Virus record (IMG/VR): IMGVR_UViG_3300042544_003895
Coordinates: 1-28,754 of that record
Source: a virus
Strand: one strand, 5' to 3'
Length of the DNA stretch: 28,754 nucleotides
The position numbers and the translations under genes were made by a program. The notes under the pieces were generated by a model that was not told the origin of the DNA, did not search any database, and saw only the letters and a program-made list of their open reading frames with translations. Numbering within the stretch: position 1 is the stretch's first letter; every line of letters starts with the position of its first letter. Of this stretch, positions 10,042 to 28,135 are shown piece by piece.

Positions 10042-10046
10042 TTTGA

Positions 10047-10054
10047 TATATTTA
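10047..10054 (+). promoter_or_regulatory. Phage-type promoter motif before the first endonuclease gene
   Basis: GATATATTTATCAATAAAA, with core TATATTTA, lies 15 nt before the ATG at 10070. The homing gene therefore carries its own expression signal of the phage class. Confidence 0.6.
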
Positions 10055-10069
10055 TCAATAAAAATAAAA

Positions 10070-10630: not shown

Positions 10631-10674
10631 CACCTTAGATAAACAATACACAGACCTTCTACAAGATATCTTGG

Positions 10675-10685
10675 ATAACGGAGTA
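10675..10685 (+). repeat. Direct repeat ATAACGGAGTA, left copy
   Basis: ATAACGGAGTA lies inside the thyA-like part of the chimeric ORF (codons for D-N-G-V) and recurs exactly at 10956-10966. Both copies are followed by A-rich runs. The pair brackets the non-thyA part of the ORF. Confidence 0.7.
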
Positions 10686-10955
10686 GAAAAAAAAGACCGT
10701 ACTGGAACGACTTGTAAGATAAAGTTTGTTGATGAAGTTATAGAACGGGAAGTTGTTTTATTAGGTAAAGTTTTATGTACGAAATCTAGAGCAGATATGT
10801 CTTGGGAATTTCAACCAAATACTGAATATAGTTTATATTATCAAATATTTGACGATAAAAATTACATATACATTGTGTTTAACGATTCTTCTGGATGGTA
10901 TGCTACTTATGGTAATTTAGAAAACTTAGTTGATAGCGATTTTACTTTCTTTTTA

Positions 10956-10966
10956 ATAACGGAGTA
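10956..10966 (+). repeat. Direct repeat ATAACGGAGTA, right copy
   Basis: This is the second exact copy of the 11-nt thyA-derived repeat, at the very end of the chimeric ORF (the last codons and part of the stop). Confidence 0.7.
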
Positions 10967-10972
10967 AAAAAA

Positions 10973-11005
10973 TTAGATAATAACTGAGTAGAAAAGTAAA
11001 ACAGT
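10973..11005 (+). pseudogene. Degenerate thyA 5' remnant (copy C)
   Basis: TTAGATAATAACTGAGTAGA followed by AAAGTAAAACAGT aligns with the thyA-like TTGGATAACGGAGTAGA plus A-run of copy B, with a short insertion and stop codons. It lies directly before the promoter motif of the second endonuclease gene, in the same position as copy A before the first. Confidence 0.45.
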
Positions 11006-11006
11006 A

Positions 11007-11014
11007 GATATTTA
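11007..11014 (+). promoter_or_regulatory. Phage-type promoter motif before the second endonuclease gene
   Basis: GATATTTATAATAAAA starts at 11007, 16 nt (from the end of the core) before the ATG at 11031. Confidence 0.55.
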
Positions 11015-11030
11015 TAATAAAACAACAATT

Positions 11031-13708: not shown

Positions 13709-14071
13709 ATGGCAATAAATAACGATATAAGTAATTTTATAATACCAGCACAATACGCTGGTTTATATGATTTAGTCTATACTAGTGTTGATGGAGGGCC
13801 AACGGGTTGTAATATAAACATAAACGGCGTTAATGTACAAATGGGTAGTGGTTCTACTATTGAAATTTTAGTTAGAACCGTTAGTGGCGGTGCTGGATGT
13901 TATTTATATGGTGATTACCCTGACGTTAGTGGTGGTATTAACACACCTTTTATCTCAAACCCAATTCAAATAATGGTAGACGCGTTTAAAAATAGAGTTT
14001 CTTCAGATGAGGGTACTTTTGAATCAGAGACATGTCTTACAACAATTTTAACAGATTTAAATAATATTTAA
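13709..14071 (+). CDS. Small beta-rich virion-type protein, paralogue of the 15646 protein, 120 aa
   Basis: Residues about 5-75 are beta-rich and glycine-containing: GCNININGVNVQMGSGSTIE, then ILVRTVSGGAGCYLYGDY. The same pattern (GCTATINGISVSVGASSSIT, IRTISGGSGCFLLGDN) makes up most of the product of the gene at 15646, so the two are paralogues with paired cysteines. The C-terminal 45 residues (NPIQIMVDAFKNRVSSDEG) are helical and unique to this copy. Location next to the lectin-type fibre gene suggests a structural or tip-associated role. No named family recognised. Confidence 0.65.
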   Translation: MAINNDISNFIIPAQYAGLYDLVYTSVDGGPTGCNININGVNVQMGSGSTIEILVRTVSGGAGCYLYGDYPDVSGGINTPFISNPIQIMVDAFKNRVSSDEGTFESETCLTTILTDLNNI

Positions 14072-14075
14072 TTAT

Positions 14076-15284
14076 ATGAGCATATTAGATAAAGCAACGT
14101 TGTTATTAACACCTAACGCTTATAAAACATCAAAAATTTATAGTATCATTCCAGAAAATGGTAGTGGTGATTTTAGTTTTACAAGGGCTAGTGGTGCAAC
14201 TAGAATAAATTCTACGGGACAATATGAAATTATGGGTACTAACATACCTAGATTAAACTACGATTTTTCTGGTGGATGTCCAACTATTTTATTAGAACCA
14301 CAAAGAACAAATCTATTTAGAGATTCAGAACCATCTACAACACCAGTAGCAGGTACTATTAGTGGTGTCACTTTTAGTGCAAATGATTGGGGTATTGGTT
14401 TAAATGGTAAAGTAACATTTACTGGTAATTCAATACAAGCAACATATTATAATGCAGCTTCGATTGCCGCTGGTAATTCACTAACTATGAGTTTTATAGC
14501 TAAAAGAACGGACGGTCAAGAAGTTAGGTTTGGTTCTGGTGGTGGCAGCGATATATATGTTAGTATGCAAAATACAGCTGGTATAGCTAGTATTAGCAAA
14601 ACATATTTAGGAAACAATTTATGGTATTGTAGTGCTACTAGAACATCTAATGGAGCTAGTACTAGTTATGGTCCTATTAAACAAACAACAAACGAAGATA
14701 CTGCGGTTGAAGTAAGCGCAATTATGCTGGTAACTAACGGTACTGGTGCCGCTTCTGCAAATACAGTTACATTAAGACCAGAATCTTATATTAAAACTAC
14801 TGGTTCTACTATAACTAAAGCAACTGAATCAATAGTAGATGTTATTAGTGGTTTTACAGGTGGTGCAGCTGGTGGGTCATGGTATTTAAAAATAAATAAT
14901 AACATAGCACAACATAGAGTCGCTACTGGTGGTGCTATTTGGGTTGGAACCAATTCTGGGTCGTCAGCTACTGGTGATTCAATACGTTTTGTAAATGATG
15001 GTACGAGTGCTAGGTTAAGATTAGTTAAAGTTCTAAATAGTACACCAACAACACTATTAACCACAAGCGCCGACACTTTAAGTGCGGTAATGACTTGGGA
15101 TGGTACTAATTTAAATGTGTTTACCAATGGGTCTAAAGTAGTAACTAATTCGGCTTTTTCTGGTTCTACATCATTAAATTATTTAGTTGGTAATGGTACG
15201 GACATTCCTAAATATATAAAAACAATGGCTATATTTCCAATACCATTAACTGATGAAGAAGCAATATCTTTAACAAATATATAA
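14076..15284 (+). CDS. Tail fibre / lectin-like virion protein, 402 aa
   Basis: The N-terminus has the pattern common in Bacteroidota phage fibres: LLLTPNAYKTSKIYSIIPENG, FSFTRASGATRINSTG and PTILLEPQRTNLF. A middle beta-sandwich (residues about 95-250) resembles carbohydrate-binding modules of phage receptor-binding proteins, and the C-terminal part (about 260-402), with GSWYLKINNN, MTWDGTNLNVFTNGSKV and a closing DEEAISLTNI, resembles a concanavalin/laminin-G-type lectin fold. It probably forms part of the adsorption apparatus and binds host-surface glycans. It starts 4 nt after the small paralogue gene and ends 1 nt before the next ATG, so they form a cassette. Confidence 0.8.
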   Translation: MSILDKATLLLTPNAYKTSKIYSIIPENGSGDFSFTRASGATRINSTGQYEIMGTNIPRLNYDFSGGCPTILLEPQRTNLFRDSEPSTTPVAGTISGVTFSANDWGIGLNGKVTFTGNSIQATYYNAASIAAGNSLTMSFIAKRTDGQEVRFGSGGGSDIYVSMQNTAGIASISKTYLGNNLWYCSATRTSNGASTSYGPIKQTTNEDTAVEVSAIMLVTNGTGAASANTVTLRPESYIKTTGSTITKATESIVDVISGFTGGAAGGSWYLKINNNIAQHRVATGGAIWVGTNSGSSATGDSIRFVNDGTSARLRLVKVLNSTPTTLLTTSADTLSAVMTWDGTNLNVFTNGSKVVTNSAFSGSTSLNYLVGNGTDIPKYIKTMAIFPIPLTDEEAISLTNI

Positions 15285-15285
15285 T

Positions 15286-15582
15286 ATGAAAGCATATAAA
15301 TTAAAATATGAAAATAGTGAATCAGCTATGGCTGATTTTATTAACAAGGGTATTTACATTAACACTAATGACGGTTTAGTTTATGGTGAAGGTGTATGTG
15401 CAGTTGTTGCCATTGGTTTAATAACTTTAACTGATGGTGTTTATGATAATGAAGGTAATGAGGTAACACCACCAACATACATTGATGGTTATCATTACGA
15501 TGTGTTAAGCGAAATTGATTTTAATTTTGGTGACACAGAAATATTCCCTAAAAACCCAGTTCATGGTTTTTACGGATTCTAA
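15286..15582 (+). CDS. Small protein downstream of the fibre gene, 98 aa
   Basis: The ATG follows the fibre stop by 1 nt. The protein begins MKAYKLKYENSESAMADFIN, an alpha/beta start like those of small proteins found directly after fibre genes in Bacteroidota phages, and continues with CAVVAIGLITLTDG and an aromatic, acidic C-terminus (DGYHYDVLSEIDFNF). It may be a fibre chaperone or a minor tip protein. Function is not shown by the sequence; position is the main evidence. Confidence 0.6.
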   Translation: MKAYKLKYENSESAMADFINKGIYINTNDGLVYGEGVCAVVAIGLITLTDGVYDNEGNEVTPPTYIDGYHYDVLSEIDFNFGDTEIFPKNPVHGFYGF

Positions 15583-15604
15583 TATATTTTTAATAATATT
15601 AGAA
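15577..15604 (+). terminator. Weak A/T hairpin after the fibre cassette
   Basis: TTCTAATAT pairs with ATATTAGAA around a T-rich loop; the stem includes the stop codon and is nearly all A/T, so termination would be weak. Confidence 0.35.
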
Positions 15605-15620
15605 TAAATGAAAAAATAAT

Positions 15621-15628
15621 TATATTTA
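15621..15628 (+). promoter_or_regulatory. Phage-type promoter motif
   Basis: TATATTTATAAGTAAAA lies 17 nt before the ATG at 15646. Confidence 0.55.
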
Positions 15629-15645
15629 TAAGTAAAAGAAAAATT

Positions 15646-15891
15646 ATGCCAAGAAATAACGATGTATATAGTATAATAGTACCCGCATTATCTGCAAATA
15701 CAACAGCTCACACGTATACTACAATATATGGTGGTTCAGCTGGTTGTACTGCAACAATTAATGGTATTTCTGTTAGTGTTGGGGCGTCATCGTCAATTAC
15801 TATAACAATAAGAACCATAAGTGGTGGTTCTGGTTGTTTTTTATTAGGCGATAATCAGAACGTATATTTAGGTTCGCCTAATTTACCATAA
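15646..15891 (+). CDS. Small beta-rich virion-type protein, paralogue of the 13709 protein, 81 aa
   Basis: Nearly the whole protein aligns with residues 5-75 of the 13709 product: GCTATINGISVSVGASSSIT and ISGGSGCFLLGDNQNVY, with both cysteines conserved. It lacks the helical C-terminal extension of the other copy. It has its own promoter motif, so the two paralogues flank the fibre cassette but are separately expressed. A small decoration, baseplate or neck role is possible. The 39 nt between its stop and the next gene hold only A-rich leader sequence. Confidence 0.65.
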   Translation: MPRNNDVYSIIVPALSANTTAHTYTTIYGGSAGCTATINGISVSVGASSSITITIRTISGGSGCFLLGDNQNVYLGSPNLP

Positions 15892-15930
15892 AAAAAAATA
15901 ATTTAATAAAACAAAAGAAAAAATAAAACT

Positions 15931-17034
15931 ATGGACAAAAATTTTAAAATTAATCCAATAGGTCTTAAAGGTAACGAAATTAACGAACGTATGAGACAAC
16001 TTATGGGTGTTACACCTATTAACGAGGGTTTATCTCGCTCAACAGTTGAGTTAACAAAACTTGGACCAGATGGTAAGTCATACGGTATTGTTAGAGAAAA
16101 TCACGAATATTATATCAAAGTATCTGATAAAACTTCAAATTTAACTGTTGAAGATTTTAAGTATATTGGTGGTTTACAAAATAAAAAACAAGAAGCTTAC
16201 CCATCATACGCTAAAGCTACTAAACATTTAAACTTAAGATTTAACTCTATTTGTGAGTCTTACGATATTGTTAATACATTTAATGTATTTGTTGATGATA
16301 AATTAATATCAGAAGGCGCTGCTAAAGAAGCTACTAAACACATTACCGATACCAAAGGTAAAGATTTAGACTGTAAAGCTAAAGAAGAAGGTGGTGACAA
16401 TGTTGCTGACAAAAAAGCCATAGATGAAATGGAAGAAGTAACTCTTAATGAGTATGAGTTAGCTATTGACGCTATGTTGAATGAAACTGAAGACTTAGAT
16501 GAAGAAGAATCTAAAGATAACCCATGGGCTATCTGTACTGCTAGTGTTGGTCGTAAAGACAAAGAAAAATACGAAGCATGTGTTAGAGACGTTAAAAAAG
16601 AAAAAGGTATCAAAGAAGAATTAAAAGGTAAACAATCAAAAATCGATGCTAACAAAAATGGTAAGATTGATGGTGAAGACTTTAAAATTCTTAAAAAGAA
16701 AAAAACCAACGAAAATTTTGAAGGTGAAGATAATTCAACAGATGAGTTAATGGATAGATTGGATAATATGACAGCAGCTGAATTTATTGAATTATTAGGC
16801 GATGCTGGTAAAGACGTTATGCGATTTGCTAAAAGAAAAATTGAAGCTGGGACTAAATTTATGTTAAATAAAATGGGTCATCCAGTTGATGAAGCTGATG
16901 ATTTTCCAGATTTAACAGGTGATGGTAAAGTAACTAGAGCTGATATCTTAAAAGGTAGAGGTGTTGATTTAGATGAAGAAATGACTATCGAAGAAATTCA
17001 AGAAGCTATTGCTGATTTAAAAAAAAAACTTTAA
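15931..17034 (+). CDS. Modular acidic virion-type protein, 5' part of a frameshifted gene
   Basis: Residues 14-34 (NEINERMRQLMGVTPINEGL) look like a short processing-type or capsid-targeting helix. Residues 40-107 form a compact module (SYGIVRENHEYYIKVSD, DFKYIGGLQNK, SYAKATKHLNLRF) that I associate with large-phage structural proteins. Residues 197-227 hold a two-cysteine motif (NPWAICTASVGRKDKEKYEA then CVRDVK). Two EF-hand-like calcium loops follow: DANKNGKIDGED (239-250) and DLTGDGKVTRAD (327-338). [ILV]-N-E motifs recur between modules. The frame stops at 17034 just after a run of ten A. One more A, or a -1 shift, reads LKKKTLTEGKKYKLKLDNPA and continues into the 17055 frame, giving one protein of 894 residues. 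A role as head or core scaffold or packaged protein is inference. Confidence 0.75.
   Translation: MDKNFKINPIGLKGNEINERMRQLMGVTPINEGLSRSTVELTKLGPDGKSYGIVRENHEYYIKVSDKTSNLTVEDFKYIGGLQNKKQEAYPSYAKATKHLNLRFNSICESYDIVNTFNVFVDDKLISEGAAKEATKHITDTKGKDLDCKAKEEGGDNVADKKAIDEMEEVTLNEYELAIDAMLNETEDLDEEESKDNPWAICTASVGRKDKEKYEACVRDVKKEKGIKEELKGKQSKIDANKNGKIDGEDFKILKKKKTNENFEGEDNSTDELMDRLDNMTAAEFIELLGDAGKDVMRFAKRKIEAGTKFMLNKMGHPVDEADDFPDLTGDGKVTRADILKGRGVDLDEEMTIEEIQEAIADLKKKL
17019..17028 (+). other. Homopolymer frameshift site (ten A)
   Basis: GAT TTA AAA AAA AAA CTT TAA in the upstream frame becomes TTA AAA AAA AAA ACT TTA ACT GAA with an added A or a -1 slip, joining two coding blocks without a gap. The run resembles a classical A-rich slippery site but is also error-prone in sequencing. 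Confidence 0.7.
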
Positions 17035-17054
17035 CTGAAGGTAAAAAATACAAA

Positions 17055-18614
17055 TTGAAGTTGGACAATCCAGCGCCAGCGGCTCCTGCCGTTCCTGCGC
17101 CTGCTCCAGCTGAACCTATGACAGAACCAGCTAATGACGCTGGTTTTGGCGATTTTGGTGGTGAAGAAATGCCAGCAGAAGACCCTATGGGTGGTGCACC
17201 AGCAGAAGACCCATCAAGTGATATGTCATTTGAAAAAGAACCTTTTGATGCTGGTGTTGATGCTGATGAAGAAACAGACCCTAAAAAATTTATTGAGCAA
17301 TTGAGTGGTAAGTTAGGACAATCACTTAGACAATTTGCTAAGGATAATGGTCAACCAGATTTTGAATTAGAAAAATTTGCGATTAATTCAGTTATTTCAG
17401 CAACACATACTGCTCAAATGGATGAGGAGGATAAAAACGATATTATTAAAAAAATAAACAAGTCTGGAGAAGATGAAACACAAGATTTTGATAACAACAA
17501 TCAAGATAATGCCGATGGTGGAGATGATTCTTTCGGTGGAGATGATAACGGGGGTGGTAATGCTGATGAATTTGATTTTTCATCTGATGAAGAACCAGTG
17601 CAAGAAGATAGTTTTAAAATATACGAAAGAGAAGATTTATTTTTAGATAACCCAAAAAAGAATAACATGTTTCAACCAGGTTCAAATGATATATTAGATG
17701 AAATGAACTCATGTTGGAAAGGATATAAACAAGTTGGTATGAAAGAAAAAAACGGAAAAGAAGTTCCAAATTGCGTGCGTGTTAATGAAAACATAGGTGA
17801 ATCAAATAATTACATGTTTTGGCAGAACCTTAAAACGCTTGTTCACGCTGCATCTGAATTATTAAATATGGATAAAAATTCATTAGATGCTTTATTATCA
17901 GATGGTCATGGATGGGCGTTAGACCATATTGCCACATCGGCTGATGATGTTGAAGAAGTTTATCATTTTGCTGAAGGTGCTTTAAATGACAGACATGAAG
18001 ATTCTGGTGAAGAAATGGATTATTCAAAATGGACTCAACCTATGAAATTAAATAAACCTATTGAAGTATCAAAAGACTTGGCTTATCATTTAACAAATGA
18101 AATAGCATTGGGTGAATCTATTTTTAGATATGGTTCAGAAAAATTCCAATCATTGTTAAAAGAAGTTAAAACTTTAAATGAAAAAGGGTTGATTAGTTTA
18201 AACGAAAACGACCAATTTATAGTTGAAGATTATGACAATGGTTTTGTTATGGTTAATGAAGGTAAAGTTAAATTAAACACTATTTTTGAAGACTTTGAAA
18301 TTGAAACAATTAATGAAGCGGAGTATCAAGGTAAAAAAGTAGAGTTAGGTAAACCTAAAAGAGGTGGTTCTAAAAAATTCTTTGTTTATGTTAGAAACCC
18401 TAAGACTGGTAAAGTTAAAAAAGTTTCTTTTGGTGCTAAAGCTGGTGGTGGTAATTTAGCTGTTAAGTTGAAGGACCCTAAAGCAAGAAAAGCGTTTGCT
18501 GACAGACACAACTGTAAAGCTAAAAACGATAAAACAAAACCAGGGTATTGGGCATGTAGATTACCAAGATACGCTAAATTATTAGGTTTATCTGGTGGTG
18601 GTACTTGGTGGTAA
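17055..18614 (+). CDS. Modular acidic virion-type protein, 3' part of the frameshifted gene
   Basis: The first possible start in this frame is a TTG (17055); the first ATG is at 17118. Coding character continues upstream, so it is best read as the continuation of the 15931 gene. A Pro/Ala-rich linker (PAPAAPAVPAPAPAEP) and an acidic Gly/Asp-rich region flank a helical block (about 75-135, FIEQLSGKLGQSLRQFAKDN). Next come a two-cysteine motif (SCWKGYKQVGMKEKNGKEVP then NCV, 219-241), a helical middle with HGWALDHIATSADDVEE, and a C-terminal module (440-519) with KKVSFGAKAGG, AFADRHNCKAKNDKTKPGYW and ACRLPRYAKLLGL. The cysteine-containing modules recur in unrelated proteins of large marine-type phages as I recall them. 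Several [ILV]-N-E motifs separate the modules. Confidence 0.75.
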   Translation: MKLDNPAPAAPAVPAPAPAEPMTEPANDAGFGDFGGEEMPAEDPMGGAPAEDPSSDMSFEKEPFDAGVDADEETDPKKFIEQLSGKLGQSLRQFAKDNGQPDFELEKFAINSVISATHTAQMDEEDKNDIIKKINKSGEDETQDFDNNNQDNADGGDDSFGGDDNGGGNADEFDFSSDEEPVQEDSFKIYEREDLFLDNPKKNNMFQPGSNDILDEMNSCWKGYKQVGMKEKNGKEVPNCVRVNENIGESNNYMFWQNLKTLVHAASELLNMDKNSLDALLSDGHGWALDHIATSADDVEEVYHFAEGALNDRHEDSGEEMDYSKWTQPMKLNKPIEVSKDLAYHLTNEIALGESIFRYGSEKFQSLLKEVKTLNEKGLISLNENDQFIVEDYDNGFVMVNEGKVKLNTIFEDFEIETINEAEYQGKKVELGKPKRGGSKKFFVYVRNPKTGKVKKVSFGAKAGGGNLAVKLKDPKARKAFADRHNCKAKNDKTKPGYWACRLPRYAKLLGLSGGGTWW

Positions 18615-18626
18615 AATATACAAGTC

Positions 18627-19079
18627 ATGGGAAGAATAGAGAAAAACAAAAAACTATTAATTGAAAGAAAAAATAGACAACTTTTGGGTAAACCAGAAAT
18701 GGACTGTCCAGAAGCTACTCAAAATTTAGAGTTAAACACTAATAACAGAGATTCTGCGATAAAAGAAAAACATATACAATATGGTCCATTAAATGTTGAC
18801 GAACCAGCTGATTTTTGGGAAAAAATAGCTGACCATTGGGATACCAGTGTTGAAGCAGCTCAAAAATCAAAATGTGGTAATTGCGTTGCTTTTGATATAT
18901 CACCTAGAATGAATGAATGCATGCCAGGTCCGATATCAGACGATGATGGTAGATTAGGTTATTGTTGGATGCACCACTTCAAATGTCACTCAGCTAGGTC
19001 TTGTAGAACATGGGCTAAGGGTGGACCTATAGAAGAAGATTCTGTATCATATAAATGGCAAGAAAAAAATAAAAAGTAA
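18627..19079 (+). CDS. Cysteine-rich metal-binding-type protein, 150 aa
   Basis: The N-terminal third is basic and polar; the middle is DEPADFWEKIADHWDTSVEA, and the C-terminal part carries seven conserved-looking positions: CGNC, C-x11-C, C-x14-C (the last in GYCWMHHFKC), then SARSCRTWAKGGP. The spacing C-x2-C-x11-C-x14-C is like that of high-potential iron-sulfur proteins, whose last cysteine is also preceded by a G-[WY]-C pattern, but extra cysteines and two histidines also fit zinc binding. It sits between structural-type genes (12 nt after the previous stop, 1 nt before the next start). The number of metal sites cannot be told. A redox role inside a virion would be unusual. Confidence 0.65.
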   Translation: MGRIEKNKKLLIERKNRQLLGKPEMDCPEATQNLELNTNNRDSAIKEKHIQYGPLNVDEPADFWEKIADHWDTSVEAAQKSKCGNCVAFDISPRMNECMPGPISDDDGRLGYCWMHHFKCHSARSCRTWAKGGPIEEDSVSYKWQEKNKK

Positions 19080-19080
19080 T

Positions 19081-21543
19081 ATGAAACCGTATACAGAAAC
19101 AAATAATGGAAATATTATAAGACGCACATTTTCAGATAATATACCTGAGAGTGAATTGGTGTGGCATAGAGACCATGAAGATAGAGTTGTTTTACCACTA
19201 AATGAAAACGATTGGATGGTACAATTTGACAACGAATTACCAACAAAGTTAACCGTTGGTGAAGAATACTTTATACCTAAAGACACTTTTCATAGAGTTA
19301 TCAAGGGTTCTGGTGAATTACAAGTTGAAATTATAAAAACTGATTTTGATGAAGTAATTGAAGAAGGTGAGAAGAAAGCTAAAAGAGACGCTTGTTATCA
19401 CAAGGTTAGAGCTAGATATGATGTATGGCCATCGGCTTATGCATCTGGCGCGCTTGTTAAGTGTCGTAAGGCTGGTGCTGCAAATTGGGGTAACAAATCA
19501 AACGAATCTGTTAATGAAGTTATTACTTCACAAGAACCAAAAGCAGAGGTAGATACATTTTTAACTAGAAGTTTAAATACTTTAAGTAGATTTATTTATG
19601 GTAAAGATGTTATCGATTTTATGAATAAACTAAAAAATATTGCAAGATTTGATAACTTTACTTTAAAACTATCAAAGGGTACTGAAGGTGCTAATCAATT
19701 TATTATTGAAATTTTAGATGGTAATAATAATGTTGGTAAATTTGTTGCTTTTATTTATAAAGACAAAGAAACTGGAAATCAAAATTTACAAATACAAAAA
19801 GTTGAAATATATCCAGAATATAAGGGTAAGGGTATAATGAGAAAATTTTATCAAAATTTTAATGAATGGTTGAAAAACAATTTAAATAATTTTGATAAAT
19901 TCACATCTGATTTTATTTTCTTGTATAACAAAGAAACAGGTAAGTATGATGGTTTTAACATGTGGGAAGATTTGGTTAAAAAGGGTTTAGCTCGCAGGTT
20001 AGGACCAGATAGTGATTATATTCCACCAACAACACCACCAAAAAATGGTATGTGGTCAATAAACTCTGGATATGCTTTAAATGAAGTTATTGAAGAGAAA
20101 TGGTCTAATGATTACAAAAAAACTATTGACTGTAATAACCCTAGGGGTTTTAGCCAAAAGGCTCATTGTGATGCTAGAAAGAAAAGACAAAAAGGTGAAG
20201 AAACCAAGTCTAAACCAGTAAATGAAAACATATCTAAAATCAGTGGTATTGTAAACCAATATATGAAAAACACAGAATATGATATTCAAAATAGTTTAGG
20301 TAATTGTTCATTTTTTACTAGAGATATGTTGAATTGGGCAAAGAAAAATGGTATAAAAGCAGATTATGTTTATATGCCAATGAGTGAACAATATAGAAAA
20401 GAAAATAATATTTCTGATAGTGAATGGGAAGACCATATAGTACCAATGATTAATGGTGTTATTATTGATTTTGCTTACACACCACAAGGTGTTTCTAAGA
20501 ATGTTAGAACTAGTAACACAATACCACCAAAATTGTTTAATTACAATGATAATTTATTTAAACCAAATGGTGTGTATGGTAAATTTGGATATACAAAACC
20601 AGAAATAAATACAGAATACGGTAACCCAAAGAATATAAATTCATTTAATGTTGTTGAGCCTAATAATAAAAAAGAAGATTTAAGTGAATTAAAAATTTAT
20701 GAATCTATAGATAAGATAGCTGGTGTTTGGGACACAAATGAAAAATTTGAAGATGGTAGTGATTTTAAAATAAAATTTAAAGTTAGTGATGTTATTGAAT
20801 TAGCCAAAAATTTACCAGTAAAAAATATAGACCCTAAAAAAATAAATTATGATTTTAGTGGTAGACAAGAAGACCCTACAAAGACAAAAGATAGGGTAAA
20901 TAAAGCAGATTTATCATATCCAATTATTGTTGTAAAAAATGAAAATGGAAAAATATTTGCTATGTTGGATGGAACCCATAGATTGGAAAAAGCTTTAAGT
21001 TTAGGGTTAGATAGTATAGAAGTTAAAATTTTAAATAAAGAAGATTTGATTCAATTTAAAACAGACTCATTAGATGAAGCTAAAAAAACTGATTTCTCAA
21101 AAGAAAAATCACAAGGTCTTCATGGATGGTTTTCTAGAAAAGGTGGTGAAGGTTCTAGTGGTTGGGTTGATTGCAACACATGTAGAAAAAACCCAGATAC
21201 TGGTAGAAAAAAATGTAAACCATGTGGTAGACAAGATGGTGAGAAAAGAAAATACCCAGCGTGTCGCCCAACACCATCATCTTGTGGTACTAGAGGCAAG
21301 GGTGAGAAGTGGGGTAAAAAAAGTACTAGTGAAGGGTTGAATATATCAGAAAATTTTAGTATATTTGATAAAAATGAAATTAAGATGAGATTACACGAAA
21401 CTTTTAACTATGAAGAACCGTTAGTATTACCAGCGGAACCTAAAACAAAACCCAAAGAATCACCTATGATTCAACCGTCTAGACGTAATAAACCTTTCTT
21501 ACCAGAAAGAGAATCACAACCAGACCCAAAAGCTGAAGAATAA
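19081..21543 (+). CDS. Mosaic multidomain protein (cupin, GNAT, papain-like, ParB-like, Cys-rich modules), 820 aa
   Basis: At least six small units lie in a row. (1) 20-90: cupin-like fold with WHRDHEDRVV and FHRVIKG. (2) 100-137: two-cysteine module DACYHKVRARYDVWPSAYAS and ALVKCRKAGAANWG. (3) 195-307: GNAT-like, VEIYPEYKGKGIMRKFYQN. (4) 341-363: IDCNNPRGFSQKAHC, a Cys-x-His-x-Cys-type motif. (5) About 385-500: possible papain/transglutaminase-type domain with C409 (LGNCSFF), H452 (EDHIVPM) and D463 (IIDFAY) in triad order. (6) 552-655: ParB/sulfiredoxin-like, with DGTHRLEKALSLGL (630-643). (7) 680-745: cysteine-rich HGWFSR / DCNTC / KPCGR / YPACRP module. The tail carries ENFSIFDKNEIKMRLHE. 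Junctions hold VNEV (144), LNEV (333), VNEN (380), LDEA (664), similar to L/I-x-E maturation sites. It may be a virion-packaged polyprotein. Alternatives are a scaffold or a single large effector. Confidence 0.75.
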   Translation: MKPYTETNNGNIIRRTFSDNIPESELVWHRDHEDRVVLPLNENDWMVQFDNELPTKLTVGEEYFIPKDTFHRVIKGSGELQVEIIKTDFDEVIEEGEKKAKRDACYHKVRARYDVWPSAYASGALVKCRKAGAANWGNKSNESVNEVITSQEPKAEVDTFLTRSLNTLSRFIYGKDVIDFMNKLKNIARFDNFTLKLSKGTEGANQFIIEILDGNNNVGKFVAFIYKDKETGNQNLQIQKVEIYPEYKGKGIMRKFYQNFNEWLKNNLNNFDKFTSDFIFLYNKETGKYDGFNMWEDLVKKGLARRLGPDSDYIPPTTPPKNGMWSINSGYALNEVIEEKWSNDYKKTIDCNNPRGFSQKAHCDARKKRQKGEETKSKPVNENISKISGIVNQYMKNTEYDIQNSLGNCSFFTRDMLNWAKKNGIKADYVYMPMSEQYRKENNISDSEWEDHIVPMINGVIIDFAYTPQGVSKNVRTSNTIPPKLFNYNDNLFKPNGVYGKFGYTKPEINTEYGNPKNINSFNVVEPNNKKEDLSELKIYESIDKIAGVWDTNEKFEDGSDFKIKFKVSDVIELAKNLPVKNIDPKKINYDFSGRQEDPTKTKDRVNKADLSYPIIVVKNENGKIFAMLDGTHRLEKALSLGLDSIEVKILNKEDLIQFKTDSLDEAKKTDFSKEKSQGLHGWFSRKGGEGSSGWVDCNTCRKNPDTGRKKCKPCGRQDGEKRKYPACRPTPSSCGTRGKGEKWGKKSTSEGLNISENFSIFDKNEIKMRLHETFNYEEPLVLPAEPKTKPKESPMIQPSRRNKPFLPERESQPDPKAEE

Positions 21544-21956
21544 TGGAAGAATTATATTTGATATATGTGAACTATGTGGGTAAAGATTATAAAGGTGATT
21601 ACCTTTATGAATTTATATTTTCTGACACTACAGAAGATATAGATGGTGATGAGTGGGATACATACCCAGCTTCTGGAAGACCACAACCACCGCATGATTC
21701 TTTTATAAAAAAGGTTGGTAGACTTGAATCTGAACTAAAATTAGATGTGATACAAAATAGTGACACATTTGCAGTTTGGGACGCTATTGATGGTGTAGTT
21801 GCTTTGGCTTGGGAAAATATTGACGATTATGACACGTATCCAGAAAAAAGAATTTGTTTTAAATTTGGTGAAGATTTATCTGAAGTTGAAGATAAATTAT
21901 ACGAAAAAGACCTAATATTGAATTATAATATAAACAAACATGAACACAAAAAATAA
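21543..21956 (+). CDS. Conserved-type hypothetical structural-region protein, 137 aa
   Basis: The ATG overlaps the preceding stop by one base (TAATG). The protein reads LYLIYVNYVGKDYKGDYLYE, then FSDTTEDIDGDEWDTYPASG, RPQPPHDSFIKKVGRLESEL, and closes with SDTFAVWDAIDGVVALAWEN and CFKFGEDLSEVEDKLYEKD. This looks like a compact alpha/beta protein with conserved Trp and Pro positions of the kind shared between T4-related phages, but I cannot name the family. It is acidic and has no membrane segment. The next gene starts 17 nt before its stop, a tight operon junction. Confidence 0.65.
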   Translation: MEELYLIYVNYVGKDYKGDYLYEFIFSDTTEDIDGDEWDTYPASGRPQPPHDSFIKKVGRLESELKLDVIQNSDTFAVWDAIDGVVALAWENIDDYDTYPEKRICFKFGEDLSEVEDKLYEKDLILNYNINKHEHKK

Positions 21957-22884
21957 ATTAAAAGAAGCCACATATATTGTCGCATCACCTAATGATGCTC
22001 AGACAATGGCTGGTACTAATAAATTAAAAAAAGACGACACTGTTATTATTGATAAAGCAGCGTCTGCTAAAAGTGCATCTTCAGCTTTGGTTGGTGAAAT
22101 TGACAATGTAATTCAACCTCAAGATAGAGCAACGATAAAGTACTTATCAAATGTAAAAGATGCTGAATCTGGACAAATAGCTCAACCGTTTAACCTTGGT
22201 GATAAAAAATACCAAATGGTAAGAGGTATAACACCAGATAAAAATGTAGTCATGGGTGTTTATTGTTTTGATGAATTAAATGAAGATGGAAGTAACATGA
22301 TTTACCATGTTGATGAATTTGAAAGTAAAATAGCTAGACCAATGCTTGAAATGGAAAAATTAACAACTGAAAGTGAAAATAAAAGCACTGAACCTGAAAG
22401 TCTTAACTTAGGTGAATTTAAACATTTTATTGTAAACGAAAAAACTGGTAAATTTAAAAAATTTAAAACAATTCCAGAATTGGCCGCTACTACTATGCTT
22501 GAAGATGAGAGATATATGGGGTTACATGAATTTAAAAAATTTTTTGAAGGTAGAGTGTTTGGTACACCTAAGAAAAAAGAGTTAAGTGAAGTTGGATTGA
22601 CTGGCCAAGAAAGTGATGAAGAAATGACTATTAAAGCTAAAAAATTAATGGGTCTTATTCAAAAAAGAATTCCAGCAACTATCATAGAGAGTATTAAAAC
22701 AAACAAGTTGGCACAAAGAGAAGTTATCGCTGCATTTGCTGAAATGATTGGAGTTCCTAGAAATGGACTTTCTGGGTTAGTCCAAGGTATCAAAGATTTA
22801 GCTAAAACTGGTTCACAACCACAACAGCAACCAGTTATGGAAAATAGAGTAATAAAAACTATAAAGAAAAAAGACATAAAGTAA
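21940..22884 (+). CDS. Hypothetical virion-region protein, 314 aa
   Basis: The ATG lies 17 nt inside the end of the previous gene. The first part (MNTKNKLKEATYIVASPND) has a short basic helix, then an alpha/beta domain: VIQPQDRATIKYLSNVKDAE, KYQMVRGITPDKNVVMGVYC and NMIYHVDEFESKIARPM. After a polar linker come GEFKHFIVNEKTGKFKKF, a helical domain with HEFKKFFEGRVFG, and a helix-rich region (IQKRIPATIIESIKTNKLAQ) that looks like a nucleic-acid or protein-binding helical bundle. The C-terminus is Q-rich and basic (IKTIKKKDIK). No catalytic motif seen. Location in the block before terminase suggests a head, neck or packaged protein. Confidence 0.6.
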   Translation: MNTKNKLKEATYIVASPNDAQTMAGTNKLKKDDTVIIDKAASAKSASSALVGEIDNVIQPQDRATIKYLSNVKDAESGQIAQPFNLGDKKYQMVRGITPDKNVVMGVYCFDELNEDGSNMIYHVDEFESKIARPMLEMEKLTTESENKSTEPESLNLGEFKHFIVNEKTGKFKKFKTIPELAATTMLEDERYMGLHEFKKFFEGRVFGTPKKKELSEVGLTGQESDEEMTIKAKKLMGLIQKRIPATIIESIKTNKLAQREVIAAFAEMIGVPRNGLSGLVQGIKDLAKTGSQPQQQPVMENRVIKTIKKKDIK

Positions 22885-22887
22885 TAT

Positions 22888-24156
22888 ATGAGCAATTACA
22901 GAAAAATAGCTGAACAAGCATTATTAAAATCACTAAACAGAAACAAATCAAAATTAAATGAAGGTGTTGTTTATGGTGATAATATAACAGAAAGAATGCA
23001 CCCACAGTTAGAACAAGAATTAGCTGAAAGAAAACACTCGTTAGGTAAACACCCAGCTATACCTGAGGGTGATGAAAATAACTTTGAACAAAAGATAATG
23101 GGTAAACGTTTCAGTGAAGTTGTTAACCGTTATAAACGCGCATTTGATGTTGATGAAATTGATAACACTAAATTAATGTCACAAATGATGCCAATGGTTC
23201 ACGAAACAATGGCTTTGGAAACTAAACACAAAAAAAACTTAGAAAAATTGGCTGAGAAAATGATTCGCGATGAGTATGATATGCCAGAAGATATTGTTGA
23301 AATAAGAGCTACTTTGTCACCTAAGATTTCGTTAGAGGGTACTAAAAAACACCCAACACCTAAATCTAATGATTTTCAATTTGAAAGCCATGAAGATATG
23401 GTAAACGCAAAAGGTGAAATTTATAAAAGAAGATTTTTAAACGCAATGATTCAAGGTGCCGCGAAAAAAACAAATCATATGTTTCATATGGTTGATGATG
23501 AATTAACTAACATGGACCCAAGATTATTGAATCGTTATTCAAAGGTTATGTCGGCGGCTGATTATATGTATTATGTTATACCTAAGATGGATAACGGTAC
23601 CAGTGGTGGTGTTGTTAAGGTAACCTTCCCAACCGCTGATAACCCTAAGGCTGTTATTGAAGCTGAAGCTATGATTTTCCCAGTACTTATTCATGAACTA
23701 GTTAAAGGTGTTATGGAATTGTTATCAGCACATGGTTTACCTAAAGATAAAAAGTTAGGTGATTATGTTGTTGATAAGGCAGATTTCTTATCAGCTGAAC
23801 CATGGGATATGAGAATTGGACCAGCATTGTGGGATAGATTTACAGATTGTATTGATGCTGACGATTTTAATTTAAAACATCAATTGTACATGGAGTTAGC
23901 TTCTATGCCAGTAAATGAATTCAATGAAAATATGAGAGAAATTTTAGCTGGTACAAACAAGGGTAAAAAAATGGTAAAAGAAATTATGAGTAGTGTTAAA
24001 CAAGAACTACAAGAAGAAGAATTTGATAACGCTATGAATGAGTTAAATTCTAAAGAAGATAAAGATTATTACACATTAGATGAAATAATGTTTGGTAACG
24101 ATATTGAACTAGATGAGGACGATGATGATGTCTTCAATAGTGATGATTTATTCTAA
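22888..24156 (+). CDS. Hypothetical virion-region protein with acidic tail, 422 aa
   Basis: The N-terminus (YRKIAEQALLKSLNRNKSKL then NEGVV) is a basic helix ending in an L-N-E motif, like a T4 capsid-targeting peptide. A histidine/glutamate-rich helical block follows (HPQLEQELAERKHSLGKHPA, FEQKIMGKRFSEVVNRYKRA, LETKHKKNLEKLAEKMI), then an alpha/beta domain (VVKVTFPTADNPKAVIE, FPVLIHELVKGVMELLSAHG, EPWDMRIGPALWDRF) and a very acidic C-terminus (ELDEDDDDVFNSDDLF). HELVK is not a zinc-protease site because the second histidine is lacking. It is the last gene of a long operon that ends at a strong terminator. I recall similar proteins only as unnamed conserved proteins of large phages. Confidence 0.65.
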   Translation: MSNYRKIAEQALLKSLNRNKSKLNEGVVYGDNITERMHPQLEQELAERKHSLGKHPAIPEGDENNFEQKIMGKRFSEVVNRYKRAFDVDEIDNTKLMSQMMPMVHETMALETKHKKNLEKLAEKMIRDEYDMPEDIVEIRATLSPKISLEGTKKHPTPKSNDFQFESHEDMVNAKGEIYKRRFLNAMIQGAAKKTNHMFHMVDDELTNMDPRLLNRYSKVMSAADYMYYVIPKMDNGTSGGVVKVTFPTADNPKAVIEAEAMIFPVLIHELVKGVMELLSAHGLPKDKKLGDYVVDKADFLSAEPWDMRIGPALWDRFTDCIDADDFNLKHQLYMELASMPVNEFNENMREILAGTNKGKKMVKEIMSSVKQELQEEEFDNAMNELNSKEDKDYYTLDEIMFGNDIELDEDDDDVFNSDDLF

Positions 24157-24157
24157 G

Positions 24158-24186
24158 ATAAGGGGCTTTTAGCCCCTTATTTATTT
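24158..24186 (+). terminator. Intrinsic terminator ending the structural operon
   Basis: ATAAGGGGCT pairs with AGCCCCTTAT around TTT, followed by TTATTTT. It separates the 15931-24156 operon from the terminase gene. Confidence 0.92.
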
Positions 24187-24213
24187 TAAAACCTTTATTT
24201 TACTTGATTTCAG

Positions 24214-24221
24214 CATATTTA
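24214..24221 (+). promoter_or_regulatory. Phage-type promoter motif before terminase
   Basis: GCATATTTATAATATAAAAA lies after the terminator; the CATATTTA core ends 19 nt before the ATG at 24241. Confidence 0.6.
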
Positions 24222-24240
24222 TAATATAAAAAGAAGAAAT

Positions 24241-26016
24241 ATGCTAACAGCACAAGAAATATTTAAAGAGTATTCTAAATGTCTTATGAATCCAGTTTAT
24301 GCGATTGAGAATTATTTAGAAACTTTTGATAAAACACAAGAAGGGTTTGTTCCTTTTAAATTATTTCCTAGACAAAAGGAAATTATAGGCGCATATGAAA
24401 AACATAGATTTAATTTAGTTACTAAACCTCGACAAGCTGGGGTTTCGACTACAACCGCTGCTTATATGGCGATTAAAGTTGGTTGGGCTGATGAAGATAA
24501 CCCAGAAGCTGTTTTGATTATTGCTAATAAGCAAGAATTAGCTTTTGAGTTTTTAGCTAAAATTAAAGACTTTTTATCTCAATTACCTAGATGGGTTTGG
24601 GGTCACGAATACTACGGAAACCCTAAAAATGATGGTAAAACAATTTTCCTTACTGATTCTAAAAAAGAAATTAGATTACCTAATGGTAGTCGTGTTAAAG
24701 CAGTTGCAACATCTAAAGATGCCTTGCGTGGTTTTACACCTACGTTTCTTATTATGGATGAGGCTGCCTATATTGACAATGGTGCCGAAGTATTTGGTGC
24801 CGCTCTTACGGCATTAGGTACTGGGGGTAGAGCAACACTTATTTCTACACCTAACGGAATGGATTCTTTATATTTCAAAACTTACGACCAAGCTAAAACA
24901 AAAAAGAACAACTTTAATATCATTGAAATGAAATGGTATGAGGATTTGCGTTATAATAAAGATTTAAGGTGGGTTAAGGGTGACGATGTAGAAAAAGAAT
25001 TATATTTTTCATTTGAGTCTTACACAGCTAGGATTGAAGATGGGTGGAAACCTACATCTACATGGTACGAGCAAATGTGTATGGGTATGAACAATGATGC
25101 GCGTATGATTGCTCAAGAGCTTGATGTTTCATTTATAGGTTCTGGGGGTAATGTAATTAGTGAAGAATATATAGGTTTTCATGAAAAAAACAATGTGATT
25201 GAACCTAAGATTACTATGGGTCTTGAAAATGAAATATGGATTTGGGAAGAACCACAAGCTGGTCATCAATATATAATGGGTGTCGATGTATCTAGAGGTG
25301 ATGGTGAAGATAGTTCTACGATAGTTATAATTGATTTCACTACTATGGAACAAGTCATGGAATATCAAGGTAAAATACAACCAGATTTATTAGCTCAAAT
25401 AGCAGAAGAATACGGTGAGTTATATGAAGCATATACTGTTGTCGATGTAACTGGAGGTATGGGTGTTTCAACTGTTCTTAAATTGTTGGAATTTAATTAT
25501 AAGCGTTTGCATTATGATGATGCTAGTGGTAAAATATTATCAGCTAGACAAAGAGAGTTAACTAGTTATAATCAAAAGGATAAAATACCAGGGTTCCATG
25601 CCACAAATGTTCGTTTACCTATGATTTCAAATTTAGAATATAAAATTAGAACCAACGCTGTTAAAATTCGTTCTAGTAGACTTGTTTCTGAAATGAAAAC
25701 GTTTATTTATAAAAATGGTAGACCAGACCACATGGAAGGTTATCATGATGATTTACTTATGTCGTTAGCGATGTGTTTATGGGTTATGGAACATTCGTTT
25801 AAAAAATTAGAAAGACTAGAAAAACAAAATAAAGCAATTTTAAATAGTTGGTTGAATGGAGCTACTTCAAGTAGTTCACCTACCGTAACAGAAAGAGACC
25901 AAAATACTGGTGTTGTGACAAAAGTAGTTAACACTAACCACCCAGCTTATAAAAACGTTCAAGACCCTAGAGGTCAATATTCGTGGTTATTTTCTAAACC
26001 AGCAAATATGAGGTAA
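24241..26016 (+). CDS. Large terminase subunit, T4 gp17 type
   Basis: The protein packages DNA into the prohead: an ATPase motor fused to a nuclease that cuts the concatemer. The N-terminal half has a Q-motif (FKLFPRQKEII, 39-49), a Walker A of the phage type KPRQAGVST (62-70), Walker B FLIMDEAA (169-176, D173, E174) and the coupling motif ISTPNG (201-206). The C-terminal RNase-H-like nuclease has its acidic residues at D349 (MGVDVSRGDGED), D402 (VVDVTGG) and D503/D504 (YHDDLLMS). The length of 591 residues is close to T4 gp17 (610). The gene stands alone between a terminator and the portal gene, with its own promoter motif. No small terminase is recognised next to it. Confidence 0.95.
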   Translation: MLTAQEIFKEYSKCLMNPVYAIENYLETFDKTQEGFVPFKLFPRQKEIIGAYEKHRFNLVTKPRQAGVSTTTAAYMAIKVGWADEDNPEAVLIIANKQELAFEFLAKIKDFLSQLPRWVWGHEYYGNPKNDGKTIFLTDSKKEIRLPNGSRVKAVATSKDALRGFTPTFLIMDEAAYIDNGAEVFGAALTALGTGGRATLISTPNGMDSLYFKTYDQAKTKKNNFNIIEMKWYEDLRYNKDLRWVKGDDVEKELYFSFESYTARIEDGWKPTSTWYEQMCMGMNNDARMIAQELDVSFIGSGGNVISEEYIGFHEKNNVIEPKITMGLENEIWIWEEPQAGHQYIMGVDVSRGDGEDSSTIVIIDFTTMEQVMEYQGKIQPDLLAQIAEEYGELYEAYTVVDVTGGMGVSTVLKLLEFNYKRLHYDDASGKILSARQRELTSYNQKDKIPGFHATNVRLPMISNLEYKIRTNAVKIRSSRLVSEMKTFIYKNGRPDHMEGYHDDLLMSLAMCLWVMEHSFKKLERLEKQNKAILNSWLNGATSSSSPTVTERDQNTGVVTKVVNTNHPAYKNVQDPRGQYSWLFSKPANMR

Positions 26017-26044
26017 TAACTATTTAATTTTACAATAAATTTAA

Positions 26045-26052
26045 TATATTAA
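26045..26052 (+). promoter_or_regulatory. Weak promoter-like motif before portal
   Basis: TATATTAA followed by AATAAAAA lies 13 nt before the ATG at 26066; it differs from TATATTTA at one position. Confidence 0.35.
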
Positions 26053-26065
26053 AATAAAAAATACT

Positions 26066-28135
26066 ATGGCAAAAGATAATTTAACAATATTTCAAAAATT
26101 AAACAGAGTTGTTAACCCTGATTATAATCCACCACAAAAACAAACAACACAAAGATTTAATTTGGGTGGTAATGAATTGCTTAAAACTACTAGCAAACAA
26201 GAATATGAAACAGCAAAATTACAAGCTCAACAAAACAAGTATTTACAAAGTACTTGGAAACGTGTTGAAAATGGGTTGTTTCAACAATCTATAAATTACG
26301 AAACTACACGTGTTGGTTCTTACGCTGATTTTGAAGCCATGGAATTTTACCCAACAATCGCAGCCGCTTTAGACGTAATGATGGAAGAATCAACTACTGT
26401 TAATGACAGAGGTAGAGTTCTTAACATTTATTCTGATAGTAAGCGTGTTAAGGGTATCCTTGAAGATTTATTCTTTAACCGTTTGGATTTACATACTACA
26501 TTACCTATGTGGACAAGAAATACTTGTAAATACGGTGATAATTTTGTTTATTTGAATATCAACGATAGACAAGGTATTATTTCCGCAAAACAAATGCCTA
26601 ACTACGAGATAGAACGTAGAGAAGCTGGTTTATATGATTTAGTTAGCGGTAGAGAATATTCTGACGACCAATCTGAAAATAGAGATAGAGTTAAATTTTA
26701 CTGGAGAGGGCGAGACGTTGAATTTAATTCATGGCAAATTGCACATTTTCGTTTGTTAGGTGATGACAGACGTTTACCATACGGTACCAGTGTTTTAGAG
26801 AAAGCTAGACGTATTTGGAAACAACTTATCTTATCTGAAGATTCAATGCTTGTATATCGTGTTACTAGAGCACCAGAAAGACGTGTTTATAAAATATATG
26901 TAGGTAACATTGATGACGCTGATGTTGAACAATATGTAAACGCTATTGCTGATAGATTTAAGCGTATGCCAATTGTTGACCCTCAAACTGGTCAAATTGA
27001 TTTAAGATATAATCAGCTTTCTAATGACCAAGATTTCTTTATCCCAGTTAGGGATGAAAGCGCACCTAACCCAATTGATACGTTGCCTGGAGCTTCAAAC
27101 TTAGACCAAATTGCAGATATTGAATACTTACAGAGAAATTTATTTACAGCGTTGCGAGTACCGAAACCATTTTTAGGTTTCGAAGAAGCAACTGGAGAGG
27201 GTAAAAATCTTGCTTTACAAGATATTCGTTTTTCGAGAACAATTAACCGTATTCAACAATCTATGTTACAAGAACTAAATAAATTAGCAATTATTCATTT
27301 ATTCTTATTAGGTTTTGAAGATGATTTAGATAACTTTACACTTACGTTAAATAACCCATCCACACAAGCTGAAATGCTTAAGGTTGAACATATGCAGGTA
27401 AAAGTTTCACTAGTTAAAGATTCTGTATCTGATATTGGTAACGGATTTGGTGTTATGTCATGGACTAGAGCTCATAGAGATATATTGGGTTGGTCTGACG
27501 ATGAAATTAAACAAGATTTACTAGAACAACGAATGGAAAAAGCAGCATCCGCTGAATTACAAAATACATCAGCTGTTATTAAACATACTGGTATGTTTGA
27601 CGCTGTTGATAAAATATATGGTGATTACCAAGCAGCTCTTAAAGGTGCTCAAGGTGGTGATGAAGCTGGCGCTGAAGGCGGCGGTGGAGGTGGTAGCTTT
27701 GGAGGCGGCGGTGGAGGCGGCTTCGGAGGTGGTGGTCTAGGTGGTGAAGATTTAGACTTTGGAGCAGAAGCTGGTGGTGAAGACGCAGAAGCTGGTGGTG
27801 ATTTAGATTTTGGAGCAGAAGCTGGTGCAGAAGAACCTGCGGCTGGAGCTGAGACAACACCTGATGCTGGTACAACACCTGAAACACCAGAAGCTTTATC
27901 GGAATCATTAAATAAAACACAAAAACTTTTAAGTGAACAAAAAATAAAATTAGAAAATCAATTAAAAGTAAGGGCTGAAAAATATCAAAAAAGATTTGTT
28001 GATGTGTTGGTAGAGTCGGTTAAAAAAAATGACAAAGAACATGATGTTAGAGTTAAAATTTACGATAAAAACGTAAAGATTAACGAAGATGTTAATAATA
28101 TGATAAATGACATAAATAAAATGTTAGATGAATAA
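26066..28135 (+). CDS. Portal protein, T4 gp20 type, with a glycine-rich C-terminal extension
   Basis: The portal forms the ring at one capsid vertex through which DNA passes. The family hallmark YRVTRAPERRVY (264-275) is followed by VGN, and other matching segments are YPTIAAALDVMMEESTT, YGTSVLEKARR, LPGASNLDQIADIEYLQRN and RVPKPFLGFEEATGEGKNLA. The first 510 residues correspond to a gp20-sized portal (T4 gp20 is 524 residues). Residues 530-610 are an unusual low-complexity extension, Gly-rich and then Glu/Ala/Asp-rich with two DLDFGAEAG repeats, followed by a coiled-coil C-terminus with VLVESVKKND and KINEDVNNMI. The tail may contact core or packaged proteins. It lies directly behind terminase. 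Confidence 0.95.
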   Translation: MAKDNLTIFQKLNRVVNPDYNPPQKQTTQRFNLGGNELLKTTSKQEYETAKLQAQQNKYLQSTWKRVENGLFQQSINYETTRVGSYADFEAMEFYPTIAAALDVMMEESTTVNDRGRVLNIYSDSKRVKGILEDLFFNRLDLHTTLPMWTRNTCKYGDNFVYLNINDRQGIISAKQMPNYEIERREAGLYDLVSGREYSDDQSENRDRVKFYWRGRDVEFNSWQIAHFRLLGDDRRLPYGTSVLEKARRIWKQLILSEDSMLVYRVTRAPERRVYKIYVGNIDDADVEQYVNAIADRFKRMPIVDPQTGQIDLRYNQLSNDQDFFIPVRDESAPNPIDTLPGASNLDQIADIEYLQRNLFTALRVPKPFLGFEEATGEGKNLALQDIRFSRTINRIQQSMLQELNKLAIIHLFLLGFEDDLDNFTLTLNNPSTQAEMLKVEHMQVKVSLVKDSVSDIGNGFGVMSWTRAHRDILGWSDDEIKQDLLEQRMEKAASAELQNTSAVIKHTGMFDAVDKIYGDYQAALKGAQGGDEAGAEGGGGGGSFGGGGGGGFGGGGLGGEDLDFGAEAGGEDAEAGGDLDFGAEAGAEEPAAGAETTPDAGTTPETPEALSESLNKTQKLLSEQKIKLENQLKVRAEKYQKRFVDVLVESVKKNDKEHDVRVKIYDKNVKINEDVNNMINDINKMLDE
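27749..27827 (+). repeat. Short direct repeat within the portal gene tail
   Basis: A 28-nt unit coding DLDFGAEAG occurs at 27749-27776 and 27800-27827 with one mismatch, within the Gly/Glu/Ala-rich part of the portal gene. Confidence 0.8.

Follow-up and report, generated by a model that had tools for sequence, protein, structure and literature searches.

Locus and domain architecture of the modular protein

The window analysed here is the whole 28,754-nucleotide stretch of the IMG/VR virus record IMGVR_UViG_3300042544_003895 (positions 1 to 28,754), in which an open reading frame (ORF) of 820 residues with an ATG start was found at 19081-21543 (+). The product, named P0001, is made of unrelated small domains with an aliphatic-x-E motif at their joints, and was judged to be a probable head-packaged polyprotein. 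An identical copy was found in a 95,427-base IMG/VR record (G001) that contains the entire window, and the window stretches sampled mapped to G001 at a single constant offset. A counterpart of 832 residues with 87% identity and the full module set was present in another IMG/VR record (L002).

A mosaic of unrelated small domains had been proposed from the sequence (the original prediction), and the cupin, GNAT-like, papain/transglutaminase-like and ParB-like domains were all found along with three Cys modules (Table 1). The presence of two or more unrelated domains within one phage polypeptide is a feature of polyvalent proteins, the mosaic and presumably injected phage proteins of Iyer et al. 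(2017, PMC5512222). The cupin was supported by Foldseek (residues 1-90, E 2.7e-5) and VIA (Z 10.9, 85 aligned residues, root-mean-square deviation 2.6). The ParB-like module was found to match phrog_17560 (1.4e-14), a PHROG of unknown function, followed by a ParB PHROG (0.0031) and by SbnI in a phmmer search of PDB (E 0.0068), and to contain DGTHR at 630-634. CYS1 was covered by most of the matches listed, of 387 and 375 phage records, mainly of cyanophages. No function was obtained for the Cys modules from any Pfam, NCBIfam or PHROG match.

The GNAT-like and papain-like assignments stand on weaker support than those of the other domains. The GNAT-like module was found to give weak sequence matches in Pfam (E 0.024, below the cut-off) and PHROG (0.059), and no credible match against PDB by sequence (best E 0.0034, an rRNA helicase). 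It contains EYKGKG at 246-251, which we take to be like GNAT motif A. In the papain-like module, C409, H452 and D463 were found to be conserved in all six aligned sequences, one of them only 30% identical. Its best Foldseek match (E 0.26) was not significant alone, and the top VIA rows were papain-like deamidases and acyltransferases with Z of 5.1-7.3, a range that is commonly met according to the warning of the tool. Against viral structures, the best match of the model was an uncharacterised phage protein (E 0.002).

The whole chain was predicted by AlphaFold2, from an alignment of 21 sequences, as four better-predicted blocks between low-confidence stretches (mean predicted local distance difference test score, pLDDT, 55.5; predicted template modelling score 0.27), and thus not as one integrated fold, the outcome that would have refuted the original prediction. 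The match list of the whole-chain fold search was filled by cupins, and that search was therefore informative on the cupin only. None of the described polyvalent domains (ART-PolyVal, LPD, MPTase, DdrB-like ParB) was found in P0001 by Pfam, and no peptidase domain of the described MPTase kind was found by the family searches.

Table 1. Modules of P0001 and neighbouring genes in the window (a slash marks a putative cut site)
Feature	Position	Strand	Basis or remark
P0001, modular protein, 820 residues	19081..21543	+	ORF; recurs in G001
Cupin, residues 1-91 (H29, D31, H71)	19081..19353	+	Foldseek, VIA, pLDDT mostly 78-86
CYS1, basic two-Cys module, residues 92-146, net charge +4, VNE146/ at end	19354..19518	+	PHROG 727/38880/3477
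GNAT-like module, residues 147-335, LNE335/ at end	19519..20085	+	Weak sequence matches
CYS2, two-Cys module, residues 336-382, net charge +4, VNE382/ at end	20086..20226	+	Contexts in relatives
Papain/transglutaminase-like module, residues 383-541, C409/H452/D463, IYE541/ at end	20227..20703	+	
ParB/SbnI-like module, residues 542-666, DGTHR at 630, LDE666/ at end	20704..21078	+	
CYS3, six-Cys basic module, residues 667-757, net charge +12	21079..21351	+	Within conserved end frame
Disordered Pro-rich tail, residues 758-820	21352..21540	+	Lone helix predicted at 764-774
Neighbouring 367-residue protein	15931..17034	+	LxE-rich (12 vs 5.6 expected, z 3.3); dockerin/EF-hand-like stretch
Neighbouring mosaic protein	17055..18614	+	C-terminal AEYQGKK module at 18318-18611, preceded by INE/
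Terminase large subunit (TerL)	24241..26016	+	phrog_2, 1.3e-45
Portal protein	26066..28135	+	phrog_213, 2.3e-59

Exchange of modules among relatives

The IMG/VR scan gave 19 loci, the record of the window among them, and a second set was made of the best 80 of 419 IMG/VR loci matching the cupin/N-terminal frame, some contigs of which were shared with the first 19. Across the 19 loci, the ends (residues 1-143 and 651/666-820) were found to be up to 99% identical, and the middle to be gained or lost blockwise. The middle was absent altogether from L007 and L008. L003 was found to be without the ParB-like module, and L005 and L006 without the GNAT and ParB-like modules; the GNAT-like module was missing as a block from L008, L005, L010, L014 and others. 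A different DGxHR module was present in the middle of L009, and a short one in L010-L013. A cupin start was combined with a CYS3 end in 27 distinct ORFs, that of the window included (two being nearly identical and one truncated by a contig end), and these contained at least 12 different middles as counted by eye, L007 and L008 having no middle at all and L002 every module. The ParB-like module was also present in four other protein contexts (L018, L101, L102, L105). Related mosaics were found to contain an ART-PolyVal-like domain (L051, E 3.2e-4, below the Pfam cut-off) and a Peptidase_M23 domain (L072).

Between the window and L002, codon differences at identical residues amounted to 2% in residues 125-280 and 527-691 and to 16-39% in the other three blocks, and synonymous divergence ranged about 25-fold between modules, from a dS of 0.04 (ParB-like) to 1.06 (cupin). 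The dN/dS ratio was 0.06-0.37 across all eight segments. The change points were found at 125 (CYS1), 281 (GNAT), 527 (end of the papain-like module) and 692 (CYS3). Since two of them lie within CYS1 and CYS3, the conserved Cys modules probably serve in part as homology arms for recombination.

An intein-like insertion was seen by eye inside CYS1 of three relatives (L017:689-3259, L040:5983-8448, L051:5231-8260), after WPSAYA and before SGALVKCR, a sign that CYS1 is widely shared. Large intein-like insertions were likewise seen by eye in the TerL or portal genes of relatives (L013:8249-11257, L052:8013-11895, L166:15468-18824).

The aliphatic-x-E motif at module joints

The joints of P0001 were found to contain VNE146, LNE335, VNE382, IYE541 and LDE666. 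The V/L-N-E and L-D-E separators of the original prediction were present at its four sites, and IYE541 had been overlooked. Strict L/I-x-E was present at 335, 541 and 666, and Val was present at P3 in the other two. The share of P0001 motifs lying in low-confidence stretches was unremarkable (15/23 vs 39/68 for all Glu).

Among 251 dereplicated starts of shared segments (left breakpoints), aliphatic-x-E (PhixE) was found within 6 residues in 140, against 87.3 for random placement (z 7.3); one offset stood out sharply with 40, the other 30 offsets having 4-22. Among 237 segment ends (right breakpoints) it was found in 124, against 81.0 (z 6.1). The controls PhixD, PhixK, PhixN/Q and ExPhi gave z of -0.6, 1.6, 0.6 and 2.0 on the left side; on the right side, the controls that were not enriched were PhixD (1.5), PhixK (-1.2) and PhixN/Q (-4.1). 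An earlier run (left z 4.3, PhixxE 4.9, ExPhi 3.4; right z 7.9, ExPhi 5.2) was replaced by this stricter one because it had also scored as breaks the alignments that were split in terminases and in insertion carriers.

The AEYxGK module was found to be preceded by P1 Glu in 24 and by P3 L/I/M in 24 of its 26 distinct upstream contexts, and by an aliphatic residue at P2 in none and at P4 in seven. In 25 new dissimilar contexts, P1 Glu was present in all and aliphatic P3 in 24 (17 L/I, 5 V, 2 M), with aliphatic residues at P2 in 2/25 and at P4 in 6/25. For this set, 27 of 92 loci that did not match the start signature were left out; all 92 were later re-read, and the motif was found exactly in place in 78, within 3 residues in 3 and not at all in 10, the module beginning at a start codon in one. 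The 44 distinct contexts on this re-reading were 34 exact, 2 near, 7 without the motif and 1 at a start. A motif at most 5 residues before the module core was found in 4/4 contexts of the ParB-like module, 10/10 of CYS2 and 11/13 of CYS3, against a background of 15%; the CYS2 and CYS3 contexts were recounted with signatures set at the putative site. For the CWKGYKQ signature, one context only was available.

Prohead protease, capsid site and candidate targeting tags

P0001 was found among T4-type head genes, as had been said of its location in the structural gene block, and a place beside portal and terminase is also a feature of polyvalent proteins. In G001, TerL and portal were found to be followed, about 1.4 kb past the end of the window, by a Peptidase_S77 protease of gp21 type (E 2.3e-26) and then by gp23, with an acidic, scaffold-like (gp22-like) gene, recognised by eye and separate from P0001, between the two. 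The gp21 protease of T4 cleaves after L/I-X-E, and the internal proteins (IP) bear targeting peptides of 10-19 residues (PMC9026906). In T4 (AF158101), the gp23 site was read as FLTE/AE at 65 and the start of IPIII as MKTYQEFIAE/A, the slashes being placed as in the literature. The gp23 of G001 was found to contain a T4-like LTE/ site. S77 was above the cut-off in 12 of 16 records and gp23 in 14 of 16, and aliphatic-x-E was found at the place of T4 FLTE/ in 13/13 of the capsid N-termini picked up, the script having missed gp23 in G006 and G012.

In 13 isolates, S77 was present in 5/5 large and 0/8 small phages. In seven of the eight phages without S77 (HTVC111P, HTVC112P, HTVC026P, HTVC202P, Aegir, Kolga and CRP-901), the AEYxGK module was found as a solo gene starting from Met, with no motif. 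In four of the five with S77, the motif was found directly before the module (HTVC008M LEE/A, C48C1 LTE/A, immuto LDE/G, Melnitz MME/S), and the fifth, S-B43, was found to contain other modules of the set. A protein of S-B43 bears the label 'structural protein', for which a search limited to a listing gave no source experiment. In the isolates examined, the motif before AEYxGK goes with the presence of S77. In Roseobacter phage CRP-6 (L277:562-1251), an AEYxGK-type module was found in one chain with a prohead protease of XkdF type (Peptidase_S78_2, 7.2e-18), a fusion that gives the module a link with heads in a further group of phages.

The pattern [LI][RK]E was found to end exactly at residue 11 in 7/132 ORFs of G001 and 12/367 of G002, and at each other position from 5 to 40 in 0-3 ORFs. 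Most of these N-termini have the form MKxxIKxLLRE, a candidate capsid targeting tag that is probably the phage's own. Starts of this type were observed on both strands (G001, reverse complement, 26124-78675; G002 14337-61103 and 200514-239483). Pfam was run on 10 of the 12 residue-11-tagged G002 proteins, and two were above the cut-off, one tRNA-nucleotidyltransferase-like and one AAA/tRNA-ligase-like. A profile made from 21 tagged starts of G002 was found to match strongly inside 8 of 14 other mosaics, near the C-terminus in six of them, as in L029 (NIIKNMLRE/TF). The best match in P0001 was NEIKMRLHE773/TF (residues 764-774), where the lone helix was predicted by AlphaFold2. The original prediction had overlooked this possible C-terminal targeting helix, together with the earlier description of such proteins as 'polyvalent proteins' (PMC5512222).

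Elsewhere in the window, a Clp-type ATPase of 833 residues (5557-8058, -) was seen by eye upstream of the block of head genes, on the opposite strand. Two GIY-YIG-like ORFs and an apparent duplication of the thyA start (10602-10967 vs 11848) were likewise seen by eye in the thymidylate synthase region (10043-13122). No match to isolates was found by megablast of window positions 14000-26100.

Interpretation and alternatives

P0001 is probably a head-packaged effector polyprotein of the polyvalent type, from which separate effectors are released through cleavage in trans by the prohead protease. The similar proposal of the original prediction was supported in part, and indirectly, by the location among head genes, the gp21-type protease, the LTE/ site of gp23, the motif at module starts, its association with the protease, the blockwise gain and loss of modules and the lack of one integrated fold in the prediction. 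The explanation is put no higher because the packaging, the cutting at each site, the injection, the activity and the host targets are what we infer. Late in infection, the chain would enter the prohead core, perhaps by the helix near its C-terminus, which is similar to the tags at the N-termini of this phage's other presumed internal proteins. Cleavage by the gp21-type protease would then follow, after aliphatic-x-E at 146, 335, 382, 541, 666 and perhaps 773. The products would be the GNAT and ParB/SbnI-like domains, the papain/transglutaminase-like enzyme, a piece made of cupin and Cys module, and the small basic Cys modules. These pieces would remain with the DNA and be carried along with it into the next host. 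Different modules would be inserted by the phages between the conserved ends through recombination, including crossovers inside the conserved Cys modules.

Several observations weigh against this explanation. The number of L/I-x-E motifs in P0001 did not exceed the chance expectation (10 vs 7.6, z 1.0); the LxE count per protein was accordingly set aside as support, and the signal lies in the position of the motif at module starts across relatives. The left breakpoints were also found to be enriched for PhixxE (z 5.9), other-xE (3.1) and PhiE (2.2), and the right ones for ExPhi (5.0), PhixxE (4.4), other-xE (3.7) and PhiE (2.9), so that Glu itself is enriched at joints and it is the sharp left peak that singles out PhixE. 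The motif was missing from its exact place in 10/44 distinct AEYxGK contexts, and no fixed motif was found directly ahead of NYMFxxNL (13 contexts) or CYS1 (6 contexts). The recombination change points were 4-79 residues off the predicted cut sites, with none at the motifs themselves, and module exchange alone is therefore no proof of cutting. The phages without S77 are partly close kin and count for fewer than seven independent cases, and CRP-6, an ambiguous eighth case without S77, was found to contain LEE near its fused module. P0001 was found to be without an N-terminal targeting tag of 10-19 residues, the cupin beginning directly, and its C-terminal tag match was weak (p 0.029 among LxE windows), as were those of 6/14 other mosaics. 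A peptidase might be present in the chain itself, in the form of the papain-like module, yet chains without this module retain the motifs.

It is unlikely, but deserves consideration, that P0001 is packaged and injected as a single or almost single chain, like an ordinary polyvalent protein, with the protease trimming at most the tail and making no cuts between domains. Transfer without cutting is known for the N4 virion RNA polymerase and for some polyvalent proteins of plasmids (PMC5512222), and the domain repertoire overlaps (GNAT, ParB-like, ART), but aliphatic-x-E was found directly ahead of unrelated modules in unrelated contexts, and the AEYxGK module was motif-free in 7/8 isolates without S77. 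There is a slightly smaller chance that P0001 is a late intracellular multidomain protein, not present in the virion, that has grown by recombination in the variable gp16-gp17 region and in which the motifs reflect linker composition or module folds. Cyanophages are known to have a hot-spot there (PMC3037559), several Glu-containing controls were likewise enriched at breakpoints, and a motif ahead of one module could belong to the fold of that module. However, the controls without Glu were flat at left breakpoints, the motif was found ahead of four unrelated modules (AEYxGK, ParB-like, CYS2, CYS3), and the seven phages with a motif-free AEYxGK module lack S77.

Most improbable is a core or scaffold component, the pieces of which would mostly be degraded and lost in maturation like T4 gp22 and gp67, with the domains as inactive remnants. 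The core proteins of T4 are indeed cut by gp21 into several fragments, most of which leave the head (PMC9026906). Against this, the C-H-D residues are kept in 6/6 sequences, the low dN/dS against L002 extends over all eight segments, the close relatives L007 and L008 do without the middle, and a separate acidic gp22-like gene was seen by eye.

Beyond the effector polyprotein itself, a tentative extension is that T4-like aquatic phages swap head-packaged, host-acting enzymes through one polyprotein gene, a plug-in cassette in which the basic Cys modules are recombination adaptors, perhaps also parts that hold DNA or serve in packaging, and each module is released by the prohead protease. One packaged chain would then deliver several effectors. 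Should the capsid protease be responsible for release, the module-start motif and the N-terminal tag would be simple genome signatures of packaged effectors. Effectors now called 'hypothetical proteins' could then be catalogued in the T4-like phages that infect cyanobacteria, Flavobacterium, Pelagibacter and others, with direct tests in cultured phages.

Comparison with known systems

Among the titles listed for the terms searched in an open-access library, none dealt with the cleavage of an effector polyprotein by a prohead protease. Recent exchange of fragments between phage proteins has been described (PMC10684548), as here, whereas the words prohead, protease, cleav and polyvalent were absent from the available text of that paper. 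The T4 proteins IPI-III and Alt likewise have a targeting peptide ending in L/I-x-E, are cut by gp21 and are ejected with the DNA (PMC9026906), but their propeptides are terminal and each chain contains one effector, whereas P0001 contains several modules with sites between them. In phiKZ and SPN3US, gp21 homologues cleave head proteins on the C-terminal side of Glu, in some of them at several sites, although the loss of propeptides is what is described there, and not a splitting into several mature domains (PMC9026906, PMC10052503). The P1 anti-restriction proteins DarA/Hdf and DdrB are also packaged in the head, and an N-terminal fragment of DarA is trimmed by the prohead protease; in contrast to P0001, a single fragment is removed and an exchangeable module array is not described in the sections available (PMC12810830, PMC5512222).

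Polyvalent proteins are alike in containing unrelated catalytic domains in one chain, in being encoded in many cases beside portal or terminase genes and in their predicted packaging and injection (PMC5512222), and the GNAT and ParB-like domains of P0001 and the ART-PolyVal-like domain of L051 recall their repertoire. Their release was proposed to be by embedded peptidase domains, whereas P0001 is predicted to be processed in trans, the prohead protease cutting between its modules. On the simplest account, P0001, in which the architectural features of polyvalent proteins were found, would be packaged and then cut in trans, and would work in the manner both of these proteins and of the T4 internal proteins.
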